Shown here: positions 7,624 through 20,486 of the stretch, in pieces
Position numbering within the stretch: position 1 is the first letter of the stretch
Layout: the number at the start of each line of letters is the position of its first letter
DNA from: Alphaproteobacteria bacterium
GTDB lineage: Bacteria > Pseudomonadota > Alphaproteobacteria > Reyranellales > Reyranellaceae
NCBI GenBank assembly: GCA_016870115.1
Contig: VGCH01000009.1
Coordinates: 1-64,000, forward strand
Length of the DNA: 64,000 bases
Direction: 5' to 3'
Translations under genes and position numbers: made by a program
Notes under the pieces: model-generated
The model's database searches: none
Told to the model about the DNA's origin: nothing
Seen by the model: only the letters and a program-made list of their open reading frames with translations

Positions 7624-8811
7624 CTACTCAGCCGGCTTCAGGCTGGATCGCATGGCCTCGCGCTCGCTGGGCAGAAACGAGATCGCCAGCACTGTGCAGG
7701 CGGCCACCGCGGAAAGCGCCAACAGGAGGGTCGGGAAGCCCGCGGCTTTCACCGACGGGCCGATCGCGGCCACCACGATCGAGCTCACACCGAAGCCGAT
7801 GGCGAGCCGCATGCCCGTGACGCGGCTGCGCAGTCGGTCGTCGATGTAGCGCACGATCATGGCGTCGGTGAACGGAATGGCGCCGAACACGAACACCATG
7901 AACAGTGTCGTCACCGCCACCAGCGCCCAACCTTCGGAATAGGCCGCGAGTGCGAAGAGCGGCACCTGGCACAGCAGGATCGGCAGGTAGATCGTCTTCA
8001 GCGGATAGCGGTCGATCAGTGTGCCCACGACCAGCTGCATCAGTGATGCCACGGTAAAGATGCCGAACAGCACGGCACTCAACAGGAACGGGTCGGCGGC
8101 GAGCTCCGCGATCTGCGCCTTGAGCATCTCGCCGTTGCCGTTGGTGGTGAAGTTGAAGACGATGCTCCCCGAGATGGCCGCGCAGGTCATGATGAAGAAC
8201 ACCCGCGCCATCATTCCAGGCGACATGTCGAGGATCTTGGCCTTGCGCTGTGCCGGCGCCTGGCGCTCCTCCGGTACCAGCAGCGCGAACAGGATCGCGG
8301 ACGCGAGGCAGATGATGCCCGGCACGATGTAGGCCATCTGCCAGCCCCAGCGCGTCGCCAGCAGCACTGACAGGCTGGCACCAATCGCGATGCCGAGATT
8401 GCCGACCAATCCATTGACGCCGATGGTGAAGCCGGGCTTCTCGGCCTTCTGCACCAGCATGGGTATGCCGACCGGGTGATAGATCGCGGCAAAGGCGCCC
8501 ATGAGAGTCAGTGCCGCGCCGATCTGCCACTTGTTCTGGCAGAGCGCGATGATCAGGCACGAAACGCCCATGCCGGCGAAGAAGATCACCATCATCGCGC
8601 GCCGACCCCACTGGTCGCCGAGCTTGCCGGCCACGATCGAGCCCGCGCCGAACATGAAGGACGCTCCGAAGGCGTAGGGCGTGAGTTCTTTCCAATCGGT
8701 TCCCCAGACCCCGGCGATCACGCTCACGGTGTAGAGGAAGATCGCGATCACCCAATGGTCCATCGCATGACCGAGATTGAGCAGCAGCGCGGTCGGGCTG
8801 GTCAGTTTCAT
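7624..8811 (-). CDS. Major facilitator superfamily transporter
   Basis: A 395-residue, very hydrophobic protein with the usual twelve-helix length. The MFS loop 2-3 motif is visible as GKLGDQWGRRAMM. A central hydrophilic loop near residues 185-205 (PEERQAPAQRKAK) separates the two six-helix halves. It lies just upstream of the alkyl sulfatase on the same strand, so it may import an alkyl sulfate or export a product. That link is inference from position only. The promoter must lie in the 186-base gap shared with the divergent oxidoreductase operon. Confidence 0.85.
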   Translation of the reverse strand: MKLTSPTALLLNLGHAMDHWVIAIFLYTVSVIAGVWGTDWKELTPYAFGASFMFGAGSIVAGKLGDQWGRRAMMVIFFAGMGVSCLIIALCQNKWQIGAALTLMGAFAAIYHPVGIPMLVQKAEKPGFTIGVNGLVGNLGIAIGASLSVLLATRWGWQMAYIVPGIICLASAILFALLVPEERQAPAQRKAKILDMSPGMMARVFFIMTCAAISGSIVFNFTTNGNGEMLKAQIAELAADPFLLSAVLFGIFTVASLMQLVVGTLIDRYPLKTIYLPILLCQVPLFALAAYSEGWALVAVTTLFMVFVFGAIPFTDAMIVRYIDDRLRSRVTGMRLAIGFGVSSIVVAAIGPSVKAAGFPTLLLALSAVAACTVLAISFLPSEREAMRSSLKPAE

Positions 8812-8997
8812 GGATCTCTCCCTGCGGCGCAGTGTACCGCCACACCCGACCCACCTAAACCCCGGCCCGTCTGGGGACTTGCCCGGAGGTCCGCAGACCG
8901 GTACCGGCGCGAATCCTCTCCCTGTTCGCTCGGATTGCGCTATGATGAACCCTCATTCACCCGACATCGGCCGAGCCCTCGCGTCCCGGAGTTCCGT

Positions 8998-10809
8998 TTG
9001 AAGCCGACCGACATCGCCAAGCCCGACTACTTCCACAAGGTCGTCGATTGCCAGTGGGCCTGCCCCGCCCACACCCCCGTCCCCGAATACATCCGGTTGA
9101 TCGCGCACGGACACTATTCCGAAGCGTACATGATCAACTGGAAGTCTAACGTCTTTCCCGGGATCCTCGGTCGCACCTGCGATCGCCCCTGCGAGCCCGC
9201 CTGCCGGCGCAGCCGCGTCGAGGATGAGACGCTGGTGAAGGGCAAGAAGGAGCCGGTGGCGATCTGCCGGCTGAAGCGCGTCGCCGCCGACTATAAGGAC
9301 GACGAAATCGCCGAGCGCATGCCCAAGGCGCCGGCCAAGAACGGCAAGCGCATCGCCTGCGTGGGCGGTGGTCCCGCCTCGCTCACCGTCGCGCGCGACC
9401 TCGCCGTGCTGGGCTACGAGATCGTGATCTACGATCAGGACCCCAAGCTGGGCGGTTTCATCCGCACCCAGATCCCGCATTTCCGCCTGCCCGAGCGCGT
9501 GATCGACGAGGAAGTCGGCTACATCATGGGCATCGGCAACATCGAGTTCCGTCACAAGCGGATCGACTCGCTGAAGGCGCTGCTGGCCGAGGGCTACGAC
9601 GCGGTGTTCGTCGGCTCCGGCGCGCCACGCGGCCGCGACCTCGATGTGCCGGGCCGCAAGGAAGCGGCAGCCAACATCCATATCGGCCTCGATTGGCTCT
9701 CGTCGGTGTCGTTCGGCCACACCACGAGGGTCGGCAAGCGGGTGATCGTGCTGGGCGGCGGCAACACCGCGATGGATTGCTGCCGCACCGCGCGGCGGCT
9801 GGGCGGCGAAGACGTGAAGGTCATCGTGCGCTCGGGCTTCGACGAGATGAAGGCGTCTCCCTGGGAGAAGGAAGACGCCATGGGCGAGGACATCCCGATC
9901 CTGAACATGCTGGTCCCGAAGGAAGTGCGGCACTCGGGTGGTCGCATCGAGGGCGTGCTGTTCGAAAAGGTCGTCGCGCGCTACGACGACAAGGGTCGCC
10001 GCTCGCTTGTCCCGTCGGGCGAGCCCGACGAGTTCCATGCCTGCGACGACGTCCTGGTGGCAATCGGCCAGGAGAACGCCTTCCCCTGGATCGAGGCCGA
10101 TGCCGGCATCGAGTTCGATCGCTGGGGCCTGCCCAAGCTTGGCGAGACGACGCTGCGCAGCACCCATCCCAAGGTGTTCTTCGGCGGCGACTCCGCGTTC
10201 GGGCCGAAGAACATCATCTGGGCGGCGGCGCACGGCCACGACGCGGCGATCTCGATCCACAAGGCCCTGATCGGCGAGGACCCGGACGTCCGCCCGGCGC
10301 CGGGCATGAACATCGTCAGCCAGAAGATGGGCATCCACGAGTGGAGCTACGACAACGCGCCGACCGTGGACAAGCGCGTGAAGGTTCCGCACCGGCCGAA
10401 GGCCGAGGCGCTGAAGGACATCATGGCCGAGGTCGAGCTCGGCTTCGATCCGGAGCTGGCTAGGAAGGAGGCGCAGCGCTGTCTGAACTGCGATGTCCAG
10501 ACGGTGTTCGCCGACACGCTCTGCATCGAATGCGATGCCTGCGTAGATATCTGTCCGATGGACTGCATCTCCTTCACCGACAACGGCGAGGAGGCCGACC
10601 TGCGCAAGCGCCTGATGGCGCCGGCGCTGAACCAGACCCAGGACCTCTACGTGTCCACGCCGGTCAAGACCGGCCGGGTGATGGTCAAGGACGAGGACGT
10701 CTGCCTGCATTGCGGGCTGTGCGCCGAGCGCTGCCCCACCGGCGCGTGGGACATGCGCAAGTACTACATTGAAATGACGCACGCGGAGCACGCATGCCGC
10801 AAGCACTGA
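8998..10809 (+). CDS. GltD-like NAD(P)/FAD oxidoreductase with C-terminal ferredoxin domain; electron-transfer subunit of the 2-oxoacid oxidoreductase
   Basis: Probably passes electrons between the 2-oxoacid oxidoreductase and NAD(P). The N-terminus has the GltD-type Cys cluster region (CQWACPAHTP, then GRTCDRPCEPACRR). A first dinucleotide fold starts at CVGGGPASL and a second at IVLGGGNTAMD. The end carries two ferredoxin motifs, CIECDACVDICPMDC and CLHCGLCAERCP. I chose the TTG at 8998 because GGAG sits six bases before it and no ATG or GTG fits the protein start. The 603 residues match the large third subunit described for the 2-oxoglutarate:NADP+ oxidoreductase of Azoarcus evansii. It overlaps the next gene by 16 bases. 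Confidence 0.88.
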   Translation: MKPTDIAKPDYFHKVVDCQWACPAHTPVPEYIRLIAHGHYSEAYMINWKSNVFPGILGRTCDRPCEPACRRSRVEDETLVKGKKEPVAICRLKRVAADYKDDEIAERMPKAPAKNGKRIACVGGGPASLTVARDLAVLGYEIVIYDQDPKLGGFIRTQIPHFRLPERVIDEEVGYIMGIGNIEFRHKRIDSLKALLAEGYDAVFVGSGAPRGRDLDVPGRKEAAANIHIGLDWLSSVSFGHTTRVGKRVIVLGGGNTAMDCCRTARRLGGEDVKVIVRSGFDEMKASPWEKEDAMGEDIPILNMLVPKEVRHSGGRIEGVLFEKVVARYDDKGRRSLVPSGEPDEFHACDDVLVAIGQENAFPWIEADAGIEFDRWGLPKLGETTLRSTHPKVFFGGDSAFGPKNIIWAAAHGHDAAISIHKALIGEDPDVRPAPGMNIVSQKMGIHEWSYDNAPTVDKRVKVPHRPKAEALKDIMAEVELGFDPELARKEAQRCLNCDVQTVFADTLCIECDACVDICPMDCISFTDNGEEADLRKRLMAPALNQTQDLYVSTPVKTGRVMVKDEDVCLHCGLCAERCPTGAWDMRKYYIEMTHAEHACRKH

Positions 10810-12638
10810 ACGCCATCAACGATTTCGTCGTCAAGTTCGCCAACGTCAACGGCTCGGGTTCCGCTTCGGCAAACGAACTGTTCGCCCGCTCGATCCTGCG
10901 CATGGGCGTGCCGGTAAGCCCCCGCAACATCTTCCCGTCCAACATCCAGGGCCTGCCGACCTGGTACGAGGTGCGGGTGACCGAGAAGGGCTATCTCGGC
11001 CGCCGCGGCGGCGTCGACCTCATGGTCGCGATGAACCCGCAGACCTGGAAAGAGGACGTCGCCGAGATCGAGCCCGGTGGATACCTCTTCTACGACAGCA
11101 CCAAGCCGATGCCGTCCTCGATGTTCCGCGAGGACGTGAATGTGATCGGCGTCCCGCTGACCGCCATCTGCAACGCCACCTACACCGACGCCCGTCAGCG
11201 CCAGCTCTTCAAGAACATCATCTATGTCGGCGCCCTCTCGGTGCTGCTCGACATCGACGAGAAGGAGATCGTGCGGCTGTTCGGCGAGCAGTATCGCGGC
11301 AAGGAGAAGCTGCTCGATTCCAACGTCAAGGCGCTGGCCCTCGGCCGCGACTGGGTGAAGCAGCATATCGATCCCGCGAGCGTGAAGCTCAAGGTCCGCC
11401 GCGCCGACAATGTCGGCGACCGGATTTTCGTCGAGGGCAACAACGCCGCCGCGCTCGGCGCCGTCTATGGCGGCGCCACGGTCTGCGCCTGGTATCCGAT
11501 CACGCCGTCCTCCTCGCTCGCCGAGGCGTTCATGGCGCATTGCAAGAAGCTGCGTCACGACAAGGAGACCGGCCAGGCGAAGTACGCCATCGTCCAGGCC
11601 GAGGACGAGCTCGCCTCGATCGGCATGGTGATCGGCGCCGGCTGGAACGGCGCACGCGCCTTCACCGCGACCTCCGGTCCCGGCATTTCGCTGATGACCG
11701 AGTTCATCGGCCTCGCCTTCTTCGCCGAGGTGCCGGCGGTGATCGTGAACGTCCAGCGCGGCGGGCCGTCCACGGGCATGCCGACGCGCACGCAGCAGTC
11801 CGACCTGCTATCGTGCGCCTACGCCTCCAACGGCGACACCAAGCACGTGCTGCTGTTCCCGGAAGACCCGAAGGAGTGCTTCGACTTCACCGCCGACGCG
11901 CTCGATCTGGCCGATCGCCTGCAGACGCCGGTGTTCGTGATGACCGACCTCGACATCGGCATGAACCAGCGGCTCTGCGCGCCGTTCGCCTGGGACGAGA
12001 GCCGCGCCTACGACCGCGGCAAGGTGATGACCGCCGAGGAGCTCGACGCCGGCAAGAATTTCGGCCGCTATCTCGACGTCGATGGCGATGGCATCCCCTT
12101 CCGGACCTATCCGGGCACGCATCCCACGCGCGGCTCGTTCTTCACCCGCGGCACCACCAAGGACGAGTACGCCCGCTACAGCGAAGAAGGCCCCGTCTAT
12201 GTCCGCAACATGGAGCGGCTGCGCAAGAAGTTCCTGACCGCCGCCCGGATCGCGCCTCAGCCGATCCGCACCTCATCGCCCAAGCCGACGCGCTACGGCG
12301 TCATCTATTTCGGCTCGACCAGCCCGGCGATGGCCGAGGCGCTCGACCGGCTGAATGCCGGCGGCAACCATGTGAACGCGCTTCGCGTGCGATCCTTCCC
12401 CTTCTCCACCGCGGTGGAGGAGTTCGTCCATGAGCACGACCGCGTCTTCATCGTCGAGCAGAACCGCGATGGCCAGCTGCGCTCCATGCTGATGAACGAG
12501 TTCACGCTGGACGCCCGCAAGCTCGTGCCCGTCCTGCACTACGACGGCACTCCCATCACCGCGCGCTTCATCGCCTCCGACATCGAGGCGAAGCTGCAGC
12601 GCTTCAAGGTCGTCTCCTTCGAGAAAGCGGCGTCATGA
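10794..12638 (+). CDS. korA: 2-oxoacid:acceptor oxidoreductase, fused gamma-alpha subunit (KorA-like)
   Basis: Subunit of a thiamine-diphosphate enzyme that oxidatively decarboxylates a 2-oxoacid with CoA. The first ~190 residues are the gamma domain (VNGSGSASANELFARSIL, with GRRGGVDLMV). The pyrimidine-binding alpha domain follows, with WYPITPSSS, AEDELASIGM and SGPGISLMTEF. A transketolase-C-like domain closes the 614 residues. It is an unusually compact gamma-alpha fusion of the 2-oxoglutarate type. Substrate could be 2-oxoglutarate, a branched-chain 2-oxoacid or an aryl-pyruvate. Its stop overlaps the korB ATG by four bases. Confidence 0.9.
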   Translation: MPQALNAINDFVVKFANVNGSGSASANELFARSILRMGVPVSPRNIFPSNIQGLPTWYEVRVTEKGYLGRRGGVDLMVAMNPQTWKEDVAEIEPGGYLFYDSTKPMPSSMFREDVNVIGVPLTAICNATYTDARQRQLFKNIIYVGALSVLLDIDEKEIVRLFGEQYRGKEKLLDSNVKALALGRDWVKQHIDPASVKLKVRRADNVGDRIFVEGNNAAALGAVYGGATVCAWYPITPSSSLAEAFMAHCKKLRHDKETGQAKYAIVQAEDELASIGMVIGAGWNGARAFTATSGPGISLMTEFIGLAFFAEVPAVIVNVQRGGPSTGMPTRTQQSDLLSCAYASNGDTKHVLLFPEDPKECFDFTADALDLADRLQTPVFVMTDLDIGMNQRLCAPFAWDESRAYDRGKVMTAEELDAGKNFGRYLDVDGDGIPFRTYPGTHPTRGSFFTRGTTKDEYARYSEEGPVYVRNMERLRKKFLTAARIAPQPIRTSSPKPTRYGVIYFGSTSPAMAEALDRLNAGGNHVNALRVRSFPFSTAVEEFVHEHDRVFIVEQNRDGQLRSMLMNEFTLDARKLVPVLHYDGTPITARFIASDIEAKLQRFKVVSFEKAAS

Positions 12639-13690
12639 CCTACATCGCCAAACCCAAGCTCCATCACCCCACGCTGGTCCGCAACAAAGCGGGCTTCACG
12701 CGGCGCGACTACGAGGGCGCGATCTCGACGCTCTGCGCGGGCTGCGGCCACGACTCGATCAGCGCCGCCATCGTGCAGGCCTGCTACGAGCTGGATATCG
12801 AGCCGCACCGCGTCGCGAAGCTCTCGGGCATCGGCTGCTCGTCCAAGACGCCGACCTACTTCCTGGGCGCCAGCCACGGCTTCAACACCGTCCATGGCCG
12901 GATGCCGTCGGTGATGACCGGCGCCAACCTCGCCAACCGCGAGCTGATCTATCTCGGTGTCTCGGGCGATGGCGACTCCGCCTCGATCGGACTCGGCCAG
13001 TTCGCCCACGTCATGCGGCGTGGCGTGAACATGGTCTACATCGTCATGAACAACGGCGTGTATGGCCTCACCAAGGGCCAGTTCTCGGCCACCGCCGACA
13101 AGGGCTCGATGAGCAAGAAGGGCCAGGCCAACGCCGACGAGTCGATCGACATGGTCTCGATGGCGATCCTGATGGGCGCGAGCTTCGTCGGGCGCTCCTT
13201 CTCCGGCGACCGCCAGCAGATGGTGCCGCTGGTGAAGGCGGCCATCGCCCACAAGGGCGCGGCCTTCCTCGACATCGTCTCGCCCTGCGTCGCCTTCAAC
13301 AACCACGCGGGCTCGACCAAGAGCTACGACTATGTGCGCGAGCACAACGAGGCGCTGAACCGCATCGACGTGATCGTGGGTCGCGAGGAGATCTCCACCT
13401 CCTACGCGGCCGGCACCACGACCGATGTGCAGCAGCACGACGGCTCGTGGCTGCGCCTGCGCAAGCTCGGCGAAGAGTACGATCCCTCCGACAAGATCAA
13501 GGCGATGCAGCGGGTGCAGCAGGGTCTCAAGGACGGCGAGGTCGTGACCGGACTGCTCTATCTCGACCCGACGCCCAAGGACCTGCACGACAATCTCAAT
13601 ACTGTCGCGGCGCCGCTCAACACGCTCGCCAACGACACGCTCTGCCCGGGCAAGGGCGCGCTGGACCGGATCAACGCCAGCCTGCGCTAA
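12635..13690 (+). CDS. korB: 2-oxoacid:acceptor oxidoreductase beta subunit (KorB-like), thiamine diphosphate-binding
   Basis: Beta subunit (351 residues) holding thiamine diphosphate and probably one Fe-S cluster. The motif STLCAGCGHD opens the domain, and the cofactor motif runs from SGDGDSASIGLGQ to YIVMNNGVYGLTKGQ. Cys residues at CAGCGH, IGCSS and the later SPCVAFN are those expected to hold a 4Fe-4S cluster in two-subunit OFORs. It is the last gene of the operon and ends 18 bases before the convergent selenoprotein-like gene. Confidence 0.92.
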   Translation: MTYIAKPKLHHPTLVRNKAGFTRRDYEGAISTLCAGCGHDSISAAIVQACYELDIEPHRVAKLSGIGCSSKTPTYFLGASHGFNTVHGRMPSVMTGANLANRELIYLGVSGDGDSASIGLGQFAHVMRRGVNMVYIVMNNGVYGLTKGQFSATADKGSMSKKGQANADESIDMVSMAILMGASFVGRSFSGDRQQMVPLVKAAIAHKGAAFLDIVSPCVAFNNHAGSTKSYDYVREHNEALNRIDVIVGREEISTSYAAGTTTDVQQHDGSWLRLRKLGEEYDPSDKIKAMQRVQQGLKDGEVVTGLLYLDPTPKDLHDNLNTVAAPLNTLANDTLCPGKGALDRINASLR

Positions 13691-13708: not shown

Positions 13709-14782
13709 CTAGCCTTTCTTGAGATCGGCGAAACGGTCGATTCCGAGATCGGCCCGGAGGTCGCGGCTCGCGGCCTCCTTGGCGTCCTCTAGCGGGATGC
13801 CGGTGGCGTCGGCGATGCGAACGACCGCCTCGAACACCGCCGCGACACCACAGGCATCGACCAGCGCCTCCTCGCCCAGGGTCCGACGGACCTCCTCGCG
13901 TTGCCGCGCGAGCTCAGCGTCGTCGCGCCCATGGACGGCCGCGCCGAACGCCATCAGCAAGGCGCCGTGCGGCACACCACCATCGCCTCCGCCTTCCACA
14001 ATCGCGGTGAAGTCGTAGCTGTCGCCGGTGTGCATGCCGCTCCCCCGGAGCAGGACCGCGTGGCTGGTGGTTCAATAGACGCAGCGATTGAGTGCCGACA
14101 TGCGCGCCGCCAGCAACTCGATCTGCGCGTGGCTCAGCGCGCGGTACTCGGTGCCCCAGTCGCGCAGCCAGCGATCGGGCAGATACATCTCGTTGTCGAG
14201 ATCGAAGAAGCCCACCACCTCGTCCGGCACCAGCGACATTGCGCGATGGATGTTGGCGGCGCTTCGCCCCTCATAGAGCGGTGGATCGTCGGCGGTCACA
14301 TCCTCGGGCGCGAGCGTCCGCACCCAGGCGCGATCGCGCCGTGCGCCGGCCGGCGCACGGCGGCTGGGCGCGCCGGCGACCGGGGTCGGCAAGGGCCGCG
14401 GAGGCCGGCCCGACGCGCGATCGAAGGCATCGACCGCCAACACGATCGCCACCACGCCGACCAGCTCGACATAGCGCGCCTCGTCGAACCGCTCCGACAG
14501 AAGGGCGCGGAACCAGCCTTCCGACAGGCGCGCGGGATCGGTGGCGATGCGATGCGCCGCCTCGACGACGGCCGCCGGCAGCTCCGTCACACTGAGATGG
14601 GCGCCCGCGACCGAGGCCGGCGACAACGCCTCCAGCCGGTCGGCGCAGAGGCGGCAGCGGGCCGAGGCACGCACTTCCAGCGCGATGTCGACGCGCTCGG
14701 CACCCGTCCACCAGGTGCCGGGGCGCGCGAGGCGCGCCCACTGGCGCTCGATCGCTTCGGTCAGGGCGGGACGTGGATCCAT
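13709..14782 (-). CDS. AhpD-like selenoprotein, UGA (14072-14074) read as selenocysteine at residue 237
   Basis: Read through a single in-frame UGA, this is a 357-residue AhpD/carboxymuconolactone-decarboxylase-type protein. Residues 1-236 end in SALNRCVY; the UGA follows, and the frame continues TTSHAVLLRGSG and stays open for 120 more residues. The joint is C234-V-Y-U237-T-T-S-H241, the CxxC-x3-H redox motif of AhpD with the second Cys replaced by UGA. An N-terminal CRLC (C43, C46) looks like a relic or second AhpD-like module. Start: ATG at 14782, just after the YddA-like gene. Likely job: thiol/selenol peroxidase or disulfide reductase. A true stop would leave a 236-residue protein cut inside its active site, followed by an orphan 108-residue frame. 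The alternatives are a Cys-to-stop mutation or a sequencing error. Confidence 0.82.
14037..14053 (-). promoter_or_regulatory. Candidate bacterial SECIS hairpin
   Basis: Starting 18 bases after the UGA, the mRNA reads CUGCUCC-GGG-GGAGCGG, a seven-base-pair stem with one G-U pair and a loop of three G. Distance, stem length and a G at the loop start agree with the general bacterial SECIS pattern recognised by SelB. GC-rich coding DNA forms hairpins often, so alone it is only supporting evidence. Confidence 0.5.
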
Positions 14783-14825: not shown

Positions 14826-16538
14826 CTAGGTCGTGGCCGGCACCAGCCGCCCCACCGCATCCGGCGCGCGTCGCAGTTCCAGGTGGCGCGCGTGCCAGAC
14901 CCGCAGCGACGGGCGATGGCCGATCGAGACCAGAGTCGCGCCCGGCAGCCGCTCTTTCAGCACCCCCATGATCTCGGCCTCGGTCTTTTCGTCGAGCGAG
15001 GCGGTGCCCTCGTCCATCAGCAGCCAATCGGGCTTGAACACCAGCGCCCGCGCGATCGCGAGCCGCTGCTGCTCGCCCCCCGACAGCGTGTTGCTCCAGT
15101 GCGCGACCTCGTCCAGCCGGTCGCCGAGATGGCCGAGCCGCGCCGCCGCCAGCGCCTCGCGGATCTCGTTATCGTCGGCTTTCGCCTCGAGGTCGGGATA
15201 TCGCACCGCATCGCGCAGCGTGCCGAGCGGAATGTAGGGCCGTTGCGGCAGGAACAGCACGCGCGCCGATCGCGGCACCTGCACCGTCCCGGCGCCGAAC
15301 GGCCAGATGCCCGCCAGCGCCCGGAAGAGCGTGCTCTTGCCCGACCCGCTCCCCCCGCTCACCAGCGTCCACTCGCCGCGCTTCAGCCGCAGCGCCTCGC
15401 GCGCCAGCAGCGGCGCGCCGTTCGGCAGGGCGAGCGTGAGGCCAGCCGTCTCGATATCGCGGCCCGTGGCCGGCTCCAGTGCCGGCCCCTCGGTGCGCCG
15501 CGCCAAGGCGTCCTGCAGGCCCAAGAGCCGGTCCATCACCGCCCGCAGTTCGGCGAGATCGGTATAGCGGTCGATGAAGAAGGAGAGCGCCCCCTGTACC
15601 GCGCCGAACGCCTGCGCGGTCTGGGTCATGACGCCCAGCGTGATCGCGCCTTCGAAGAAGCGCGGCGCGGTCACCAGATAGGGAAACACGATGGCGATCT
15701 GCGCGTAGCCGGTCTGGTAGAAGGCGAGCTGCACCTCGGTCTTCAGCACGCGCCAGCCATTGGTGAAGATGTCGGCGAAGCGGTCGCGCAACGACGCGCC
15801 CTCGCGCGCCTCGCCGCCATAGAGCGCGATGCCCTCGGCGTTCTCGCGCACCCGCACCAGATCGTAACGGAAGTTCGCCTCGAAGCGCTGCTGCGCGAAG
15901 TTGAGCGGGATCAGCCGGCGCCCCACGAGGTTGGCGAACCAGGTGCCGACCAGCGCATAGGCCAGCGCCGCCCAAACCATGTAGCCCGGCAGCTCGGCAT
16001 CGACGCCGGCGAAGGCGAGCGACAGCGGTCCCGACAGCGCCCACAGGATGGCGAGAAACGACACCAGCGTGGCGGTCGCGTTGATGAAACCGAGGAAGAG
16101 CCGCATCGTGTACTCGCCGAGCAGCCGGATATCCTCCGCCAGCCGCTGGTCGGCATTGTCGATGCGGCGCTCCAGCTCGATCCGGTAGTAGCCGCGCCCG
16201 GCCAACCAGCTCTCCAGGTAACGCGAGGTCAGCCACCGCCGCCACCGCAGCCGCAGATAGGGGCTCACCAGGCCGCGCAGGATCGCGAAGCTGATGGCGA
16301 GTGCCGCGATCCAGACGAAGTTCCCCATTTCGCGCCAGAACGCGGCCTCATCCTTGTTCTGCAGGCTGTCGAAAAAGCGCCGGTTCCACTCGCTGTAGGC
16401 GACCTCGACCGAGACCGCCGCGAGCGTGAGCACGATCGCGCCGATCAGGAGCGCATTGGCGATCACCCGCTCCTCGGAGCGGAAATACGGCACAACAAGC
16501 CGCCACCAGTCGCCGAGGAACGTTTGTACTTTCTTCAT
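14826..16538 (-). CDS. YddA/SbmA-BacA-type ABC transporter, fused membrane and ATPase domains
   Basis: A 570-residue half transporter of the ABC-D-like family typified by E. coli YddA: an N-terminal membrane domain related to SbmA/BacA (about residues 20-330, with WNRRFFDSLQNKD) and a C-terminal ATPase. Walker A is SGGSGSGKSTLF, the signature LSGGEQQRLAIARAL and Walker B WLLMDEGTASLD. It probably works as a homodimer at the inner membrane. I start at the second ATG (16538), which has GGAG seven bases upstream. Known relatives move peptides, B12-like molecules or long-chain compounds; substrate here is unknown. The gap to the selenoprotein-like gene is 43 bases, so they may be co-transcribed. 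Confidence 0.88.
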   Translation of the reverse strand: MKKVQTFLGDWWRLVVPYFRSEERVIANALLIGAIVLTLAAVSVEVAYSEWNRRFFDSLQNKDEAAFWREMGNFVWIAALAISFAILRGLVSPYLRLRWRRWLTSRYLESWLAGRGYYRIELERRIDNADQRLAEDIRLLGEYTMRLFLGFINATATLVSFLAILWALSGPLSLAFAGVDAELPGYMVWAALAYALVGTWFANLVGRRLIPLNFAQQRFEANFRYDLVRVRENAEGIALYGGEAREGASLRDRFADIFTNGWRVLKTEVQLAFYQTGYAQIAIVFPYLVTAPRFFEGAITLGVMTQTAQAFGAVQGALSFFIDRYTDLAELRAVMDRLLGLQDALARRTEGPALEPATGRDIETAGLTLALPNGAPLLAREALRLKRGEWTLVSGGSGSGKSTLFRALAGIWPFGAGTVQVPRSARVLFLPQRPYIPLGTLRDAVRYPDLEAKADDNEIREALAAARLGHLGDRLDEVAHWSNTLSGGEQQRLAIARALVFKPDWLLMDEGTASLDEKTEAEIMGVLKERLPGATLVSIGHRPSLRVWHARHLELRRAPDAVGRLVPATT

Positions 16539-16708
16539 TGTCGCGCTCCGCAAACACCGTCGTCACGGCAAACTCCCCCGCTTCCGCGAGGATGACAAGC
16601 GTGCCACCGCCGCACGGGGCGCGCCGTCCCGGGCGAACCGCCGACCGGCCGTTCCCATCGCGCCGTCCCGGCATGACAATCGGGGCGCGCGCGTCTATGA
16701 CGCCGCGC

Positions 16709-18004
16709 ATGAACGCCTCGGACCTCGACGCCCGCCGCGCCGCACTCGACCTGCTGGGCGGCTGTCTGGACAAGGGCCAGCCGCTCGACGAGTCGCTGGC
16801 CCGCCACGAGGCGTTCGCGAACCTCGCGCCGCGCGACCGCGCCTTTGTGCGGCTGCTGCTCGCCACGACGCTGCGGCGGCTGGGCGAGATCGAGGACGTT
16901 CTCGCCCGTCTGGTCGATCGGCCGCCGGAGGGCCGCAATGCCGCCGCCGCCCACGCGCTCCGACTGGGCGCCGCCCAGCTTCTCTTTCTCGGCACGCCCG
17001 CGCATGCCGCGGTCGACACCTCGGTACGGCTGGTCGAGAGCTGGGGCCTCGGCCATCTGAAGGGGCTGGTCAACGCCGTGCTGCGCCGCATCGACCGCGA
17101 GGGCGGCGCGCTGCTCGGCGATCGCGATCCCGCGCGCCTCAACACGCCGCAATGGCTGTGGGACAGCTGGAGCGAAAGCTGGGGCGAGGATGGCACGCGC
17201 CGCATCGCGGCCGCGCATCTGGTCGAGGCGCTGCTCGATCTCAGCGTGCGCGCCGACGCGGCCTTCTGGGCCGGTCAGCTCGAGGCGGAGATCCTGCCCA
17301 CCGGCACGCTGCGCCGCGCGGCGGGCGGCAACGTCGCCGACTTGCCGGGCTTCGCCGAAGGAACCTGGTGGGTGCAGGACGTCGCCGCCGCCCTGCCCGC
17401 TCGCCTGCTGGGCGACGTCGCGGGCCAGCGCGTCGCCGATCTCTGCGCCGCGCCCGGCGGCAAGACTCTGCAACTCGCCGCCGCCGGAGCGCAAGTAACC
17501 GCCGTCGACATCTCCGCCCGCCGCCTGCAACGCGTCTCCGACAATTTGGCGCGCGCGGGGCTCAGCGCCGAGATCGTCGCCACCGACGCCGCCAAGTGGC
17601 AGCCCGCCGTGCCGTTTGATGCCGTGCTGATCGACGCGCCGTGCTCGGGCACCGGCACCTTGCGCCGCCATCCCGACATCGCCTGGCTGAAGGAACCGGC
17701 GGACGTGGCGCGGCTTGCCAACACCCAGGCCCGCCTGCTCGCGCGGGCCGTCGAGCTCGTCCGGCCCGGCGGCATGATCGTCTACGCCGTCTGCTCCCTG
17801 CAGCCCGAGGAAGGCCCCGAGCAGATCGAGGCGATCCTGCGACGAGAGCCCCGCCTTGCCCGTGCGCCGCTCACGCCAGCCGACCTGCCCGGCCTCCCCG
17901 AAGCGATCGACGCCGCCGGCGACCTGCGCACGCTCCCCTCGATGTGGGCCGAGCGCGGCGGGATGGACGGGTTCTACGCGGCGAGGTTGGTACGGGGGAC
18001 TTGA
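16709..18004 (+). CDS. rsmB: 16S rRNA m5C967 methyltransferase RsmB
   Basis: Methylates a cytosine of 16S rRNA using S-adenosylmethionine. The first ~130 residues are the NusB-like RNA-binding domain (ARRAALDLLGGCLDKG, NAVLRRIDREGG). The methyltransferase domain shows the AdoMet loop LCAAPGGKTLQLA, the motif IV Cys in DAPCSGTGTLRRHPD and the catalytic motif VI Cys in YAVCSLQPEEG. The ATG at 16709 gives a normal 431-residue protein; an ATG four codons earlier is possible. It diverges from the YddA-like gene. Confidence 0.92.
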   Translation: MNASDLDARRAALDLLGGCLDKGQPLDESLARHEAFANLAPRDRAFVRLLLATTLRRLGEIEDVLARLVDRPPEGRNAAAAHALRLGAAQLLFLGTPAHAAVDTSVRLVESWGLGHLKGLVNAVLRRIDREGGALLGDRDPARLNTPQWLWDSWSESWGEDGTRRIAAAHLVEALLDLSVRADAAFWAGQLEAEILPTGTLRRAAGGNVADLPGFAEGTWWVQDVAAALPARLLGDVAGQRVADLCAAPGGKTLQLAAAGAQVTAVDISARRLQRVSDNLARAGLSAEIVATDAAKWQPAVPFDAVLIDAPCSGTGTLRRHPDIAWLKEPADVARLANTQARLLARAVELVRPGGMIVYAVCSLQPEEGPEQIEAILRREPRLARAPLTPADLPGLPEAIDAAGDLRTLPSMWAERGGMDGFYAARLVRGT

Positions 18005-19508: not shown

Positions 19509-20438
19509 TCAGCCGGTGATCGAGGGGCCGGCCTCGTGGCCGAGCCATTCCTCGATCAGGCGGCGCGCGATCGAATCGCGGCGCGGCATGAAGAACGAGC
19601 CATCCTTGGGCAGGTTCTCGGGCCGCAGCTCCTCGCGGCTGAGCCAGCGCGCGCTTTCGAGCTCGGACTCGTTCACGTCGAAATCGAGACTCTCGGCCTC
19701 GGCATGAAAGCCGATCATCACCGAGGCCGGGAACGGCCAGGGCTGGGAGGAGCGGTAGCGGACATTGCCGACCCGCACCTTGACCTCCTCGTAGACCTCA
19801 CGCGCGACGGCGTCCTCGAAGCTCTCGCCCGGCTCGACGAATCCGGCCAGCGTCGAGTGCATGCCGCGCGGAAAATGCTTGCCGCGACCCAGCAGGCACT
19901 TGTCGCCGTGATGGACGAGCATGATGACGGCGGGATCGGTGCGCGGGAAATGCTCGGCCTTGCAGGCCTCGTTGGTGCAGCGCCGCACATGGCCGCCCTT
20001 GATCACCTTGGTCGTGGCGCCACAGACACCGCAGTAGCGGTGGCGGCGGTGCCAGTAGGTCATGCCGCGCGCATAGGCGAGCAGCGAGCCTTCGCGCGCG
20101 AACAGGAGCGGACCGACCTGGCGAAGATCGACGAACTCGCCCAACTCGCCCAGGGGCGTCTCCTGGCCGGTGACATCGACGGCGAAGTACGGCGTGCCCT
20201 CGACGTAGCCCAGGAAGACCTGCGTATCGGCGCCGCGCGAGACGGCGCGGCCCATCATGCCGTGCAGGAAGACCGCTTCGGGATTGCCCGACTTCTTGTC
20301 GACCAGATTGCGTTCGGAATCGATCGGGATGAAGCGCGCCTCGCCCGACGAGGCGAGCTCGATCATGCGCTCGTCATCCTCGCGTTCGTGGCTCGCCCGG
20401 TCGATCTCGGCACTGGAGTAGGGATTGCGGTTCTGCAT
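19509..20438 (-). CDS. nudC: NADH pyrophosphatase / RNA decapping NUDIX hydrolase NudC
   Basis: Cleaves NAD(H) and removes NAD caps from RNA. The zinc ribbon reads CGVCG then CTNEAC. The Nudix box runs from GFVEPGESFEDAV to REVYEEVKVRVG. The NADH-pyrophosphatase signature SQPWPFPASVM follows, which separates NudC from other Nudix enzymes. The start at 20438 gives 309 residues; the longer reading adds a Gly/Pro/Cys stretch unlike the family. It begins 48 bases after the FAD/Fe-S gene ends. Confidence 0.93.
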   Translation of the reverse strand: MQNRNPYSSAEIDRASHEREDDERMIELASSGEARFIPIDSERNLVDKKSGNPEAVFLHGMMGRAVSRGADTQVFLGYVEGTPYFAVDVTGQETPLGELGEFVDLRQVGPLLFAREGSLLAYARGMTYWHRRHRYCGVCGATTKVIKGGHVRRCTNEACKAEHFPRTDPAVIMLVHHGDKCLLGRGKHFPRGMHSTLAGFVEPGESFEDAVAREVYEEVKVRVGNVRYRSSQPWPFPASVMIGFHAEAESLDFDVNESELESARWLSREELRPENLPKDGSFFMPRRDSIARRLIEEWLGHEAGPSITG

Positions 20439-20486
20439 GGGGCGGAAACTGGCACAGGGCCCGGAGCCCCGCAACGCGCGCGACTC

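Follow-up and report, generated by a model that had tools for sequence, protein, structure and literature searches.

A UGA-Interrupted AhpD-like Gene from an Alphaproteobacterium as a Member of the NF041238 Selenoprotein Family

Introduction

When a reading frame is cut by a single UGA in the middle of a redox motif, does the locus encode one selenoprotein or two unrelated proteins? The question is raised by a gene on the minus strand of the window, the 64,000-nucleotide stretch of alphaproteobacterial DNA analyzed here. From its ATG (14782-14780) to its TAG (13711-13709), the frame at 13709-14782 runs for 357 codons with one internal stop, a TGA at codon 237 (14072-14074). The family to which this gene will be assigned below has been described before. 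In 2005, a selenoprotein family without an assigned function was reported under the name "hypothetical protein 1"; it had a CXXU motif, a SECIS element was predicted for it, and Cys homologues were listed (PMC1088965). A review of 2026 identifies this family, part of the Sargasso Sea selenoproteome of 2005, with NF041238 and notes its CxxU motif (PMC13188914). The explanation that best accounts for the locus as a whole, and that we hold with high confidence, is one 357-residue selenoprotein with a recoded UGA and a fused pair of AhpD-type domains. The gene shows how, in raw sequence, a selenoprotein can pass for two broken pieces, and it supplies codon-level evidence of UGA recoding. It also provides new leads for a family without a known function, namely a sestrin-like two-module architecture, a CxxC that aligns with the CxxU, and a neighboring selenocysteine (Sec) peroxiredoxin-like gene in some relatives.

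The Reading Frame and Its Family

The initial annotation had described a minus-strand frame broken by one UGA at 14074-14072, with the UGA in the place of the second Cys of a CxxC-x3-H motif. Both descriptions are borne out. The frame is open on either side of the UGA, and its translation reads NRCVY-U-TTSH, which corresponds to C234-x-x-U237-x3-H241. An alignment of homologues across the joint, which had been proposed as a check, gives a continuous match (residues 4-352/355, in many loci) with U at residue 237. For NCBIfam model NF041238 (AhpD_rel_CFYUT, "alkylhydroperoxidase-related (seleno)protein"), which has a cut-off of 175, the score is 454.7 bits, with residues 4-352 aligned to model positions 2-356/357, and the C-x-Y-U/C-T motif of the model is present as CVYUT at residues 234-238. 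In Pfam, only the CMD/AhpD core is matched over the cut-off, at residues 214-250. The gene is a new member of NF041238, which NCBIfam already lists among selenoproteins. It shares the CxxU motif, the length, and the full-length match with that family, and apart from CVYUT where the model has CFYUT, nothing about it is distinctive.

If the UGA were instead a true stop, the locus would encode two separate proteins, the second beginning at M250 (14035), where an ATG 13 codons past the UGA opens a 108-residue frame. UGA does serve as a normal stop in this genome. TGA ends the neighboring genes at 8476-10809, 10794-12638, 16538-18004, and 19509-20474, so UGA is not reassigned genome-wide. A division into two proteins would, however, split the C234-x-x-[U]-x3-H241 motif and would place H241, a residue that never varies in the family, ahead of the second start. 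It would also leave the strict co-occurrence of the family with selB, described below, without a reason. We regard two separate proteins as very improbable and continue with the single recoded frame.

Conservation of the UGA Codon

A single genome could not distinguish a TGA that is a recoding signal from one that arose by nonsense mutation or sequencing error, with the TGC or TGT of a Cys-containing AhpD-like gene turned into TGA; in the latter case, the gene would be a pseudogene or an artefact. The relatives decide between these readings. They were collected as 56 loci, with one genome per species and with seed peptides that exclude the UGA site, and every member that covers the motif has U at this position and none has Cys. 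When 288 genomes of the class were searched independently with the NF041238 model, 40 members scored above the cut-off in 22 genomes, and each of the 40 contains exactly one internal TGA. Across several phyla, 74 distinct sequences have the UGA at the same codon, again with Cys in none. The residues that follow the UGA are conserved among the relatives, a second copy of the gene in the same genome also carries the TGA, and the downstream hairpin discussed below is constrained at the codon level. Conservation of this kind effectively refutes a mutation or error, to which we assign next to no credence.

The recoded codon sits among residues that are themselves highly conserved. The C, Y, U, and T of the motif are near-invariant among the relatives, and all 71 family sequences compared have E222, C234, U237, and H241. 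C234 (14081-14083, minus strand) is the partner of Sec237, H241 (14060-14062, minus) is the histidine of CxxU-x3-H, and E222 (14117-14119, minus), which lies 15 residues before Sec237, is by analogy the likely proton-relay acid of an AhpD-type site. Cys homologues, which are known from the 2005 study (PMC1088965), were absent among the relatives found here. In 397 genomes drawn from the phylum, the family was seen in the source genome alone, a result with little bearing on Cys forms. The second family gene of the source genome is also full length, lies at C14:73677-74729 (L108:7669-8733, minus), has its UGA in a CEYU motif, and shares the hairpin. At another locus, two family genes adjoin as tandem copies (L095:237-1325 and 1477-2565, minus) with a UGA in both.

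Selenocysteine Machinery and a Predicted SECIS Hairpin

A search for the sel genes, also proposed at the outset, found the complete set in the source genome. On contig C19 are selB (C19:2903-4750, 443.8 bits), tRNA-Sec (C19:1476-1567, 72.3 bits), and selA (C19:5546-6856), and selD is located at C34:3705-4631. The Rfam model SECIS_3 also has a match on C19, in the formate dehydrogenase region (L017:12785-12843, minus); the cluster there comprises tRNA-Sec, selB, and selA together with apparent genes for fdhE and for formate dehydrogenase subunits. Across the 288 genomes of the class, selB is found above the cut-off in all 22 genomes that carry the family compared to 45 overall (P = 8e-21, uncorrected for relatedness), and in 5 of the 22 a family member lies within ~4 kb of selB.

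Immediately past the UGA, a bacterial SECIS hairpin is predicted (CUGCUC-CGGGG-GAGCGG; 14037-14053, minus strand), spanning 19-35 nt downstream of the codon; its apical loop, CGGGG, contains the G expected of such elements. All four inner base pairs are kept in 70 of the 74 distinct relatives, compared to a mean of 7.5 and a maximum of 19 in 1000 trials in which random synonymous codons were drawn from each gene's own usage. This stem-specific test was designed with the conserved codons already in view, and its margin is large. The pairing is reflected in the choice of codons. Eight codons past the UGA, Leu is encoded by CTC in 73 of 74 sequences; at codon 10, the third base is G in 74 of 74 while the residue varies among Ala, Glu, Gly, Val, and Leu; and the Arg codon is CGT or CGG and never CGC among the 74 relatives. 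Relatives that have LLGLS in place of LLRAS retain the stem all the same. A scan of the 3.56 Mb genome for the core pattern TGA-N21-CTCSGKNNGAG gives two matches, in this gene and in the family gene on C14, and none for its reversed control. Folding energy over the 54 nt after the UGA does not differ significantly from synonymous shuffles for this gene (z = +0.56) and is slightly low for the family as a whole (mean z of -0.41), and the Rfam SECIS models give no match at this gene. The structural case therefore rests on the short inner stem, since the whole-region folding energy is weak. The original proposal that the product is a selenoprotein is supported by the U at position 237 in the homologues, the sel machinery, and the codon-constrained hairpin, and on this sequence evidence codon 237 almost certainly encodes selenocysteine.

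Two AhpD-like Modules

An AlphaFold2 model built from 71 family sequences predicts an all-helical protein (pLDDT 96.9) in two halves. The C-terminal half, about residues 149-344 (13751-14338, minus strand), is the catalytic AhpD-type half; it contains the Pfam CMD match and gives a fold Z score of 13.8 to 6k40 over residues 149-341. The N-terminal half, residues 1-160 (14303-14782, minus), is also predicted to adopt an AhpD fold when folded alone (pLDDT 95.8). Its best 12 fold matches are all AhpD/CMD-family proteins with Z scores of 6.3-7.5, values that are modest by the comparison tool's own caution; Sestrin2 scores 4.5 and the other matches reach at most 3.0. This first half carries CRLC (C43/C46; 14645-14656, minus), the CxxC of a diverged AhpD-like half. 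When the two halves are compared as profiles, C43-x-x-C46 falls opposite C234-x-x-U237 (E 1.3e-4, probability 53%), and the first half keeps the CxxC while the motif histidine is absent. The initial suggestion that two redox modules may be fused thus gains support from the N-terminal AhpD fold and from the CxxC at the CxxU position. The N-terminal CRLC, to which that suggestion appealed, is present in this protein; it is not universal in the family, being found in 57 of 71 members and missing mainly from actinobacterial ones. The chain looks like an internal duplication in the predicted model, as in fused AhpD dimers and sestrins, and very likely forms a fused AhpD-type oxidoreductase.

The closest whole-chain fold match to the model is human Sestrin2 (Z 16.7, 232 residues, 3.2 Å, residues 1-330, 12% identity). 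Sestrins likewise consist of two AhpD-like domains in one chain (PMC4674687). The arrangement is distinct, however. Sestrin2 has its catalytic half at the N-terminus with a single Cys (C125) and uses its C-terminal half for leucine and GATOR2 binding, whereas here the catalytic half is C-terminal and has CxxU, and the N-terminal half has a CxxC without the His. Sestrins are absent from the sequence-profile matches in the PDB up to an E value of 10, and for this reason we do not claim common descent with them. Among single-module proteins, the TIGR01926 peroxidase-related and AhpD-like structures (2oyo, 2prr, 6k40, and 3c1l) share the fold of the C-terminal half and the CxxC/U-x3-H motif, but they use Cys, and the protein described here adds an N-terminal module and Sec. 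AhpD of Mycobacterium tuberculosis also shares the fold (Z 8.3) at ~12% identity, with Cys in the place of Sec, and its active site (E118/C130/C133/H137) has the same motif spacing as E222/C234/U237/H241. Bacterial counterparts of the two-module arrangement are available as well. The excerpted passages of PMC11429811 describe sestrin analogues that are fused AhpD dimers from Corynebacterium ureicelerivorans and Comamonas aquatica and E. coli YciW. According to these passages, the catalytic cysteines of the C. ureicelerivorans and Comamonas aquatica proteins are C-terminal, as they are here, and their N-terminal halves are without cysteines, in contrast to the CxxC kept in the present protein. 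Selenocysteine is not mentioned for these fused dimers in those passages.

Proposed Mechanism and Genomic Context

In the mechanism that we propose, SelB and tRNA-Sec would read the UGA at codon 237 as selenocysteine, guided by the hairpin just downstream. The single chain would then fold as a pair of AhpD-type helical domains with the active site E222...C234-x-x-U237-x3-H241 in the second half. U237, activated by a relay through E222 and H241, could attack as a selenolate on either a hydroperoxide or an oxidized peroxiredoxin and subsequently pair with C234 as a selenenyl-sulfide. A cellular dithiol would reduce this intermediate, possibly by way of C43/C46. The predicted fold and the active-site residues suggest a thiol/selenol peroxide reductase or peroxiredoxin reductase, a specific role to which we give about an even chance.

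Neighboring genes bear on this assignment. A consistent gene neighborhood was sought across the family and none was found, as the neighbors are mixed; minorities of the relatives share sel genes, a Sec peroxiredoxin-like gene, or fatty-acid/short-chain dehydrogenase genes. At five distinct loci (L048, L051/L112, L113, L029, and L087/L109), the family gene has as its neighbor a peroxiredoxin-like gene with a UGA of its own (FYRGHWUPYC). In L048, L051, and L113, the peroxiredoxin-like gene is directly upstream on the same strand and has an N-terminal hydrophobic segment. This adjacency points to redox defence and speaks against a selenoprotein with different chemistry, which might, for example, reductively strip off halogen or sulfur groups or catalyze a step in the breakdown of acyl-CoA compounds or ketones instead of defending against peroxides. 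Such chemistry has its own attractions: the fold matches include Bmp8, a debrominase with an AhpD fold (Z 12.8), which also matches weakly by profile, and the neighboring genes of several relatives encode short-chain dehydrogenases, AMP-binding ligases, and acyl-CoA dehydrogenases. These neighbors are, however, inconsistent across the family, and we rate a different chemistry as unlikely, though a serious competitor to the peroxide or peroxiredoxin reductase that we favor. A more ambitious form of the favored role is that the family is a selenium-using bacterial counterpart of the sestrins, passing electrons from the CxxC to the CxxU and recycling a co-encoded Sec peroxiredoxin. We offer this as a long shot; if true, it would define a peroxide-detoxifying pair with selenium in both partners.

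In the window itself, no peroxiredoxin or sel genes adjoin the selenoprotein gene. On one side lies a convergent apparent operon (8476-13690) that encodes a GltD-like oxidoreductase containing ferredoxin domains and, after it, the alpha and beta subunits of a 2-oxoacid:acceptor oxidoreductase. On the other, 43 nt separate the start of the selenoprotein gene from the end of an SbmA/BacA-like ABC transporter gene (14826-16553, minus strand), which lies upstream on the same strand and is a candidate operon partner. Farther along the same contig, 84 kb away, the source genome contains a peroxiredoxin-like UGA gene (SFFRGHWUPYC) at C9:98471-98983 (L132:1501-2013, minus), which is a possible further selenoprotein and a possible partner.
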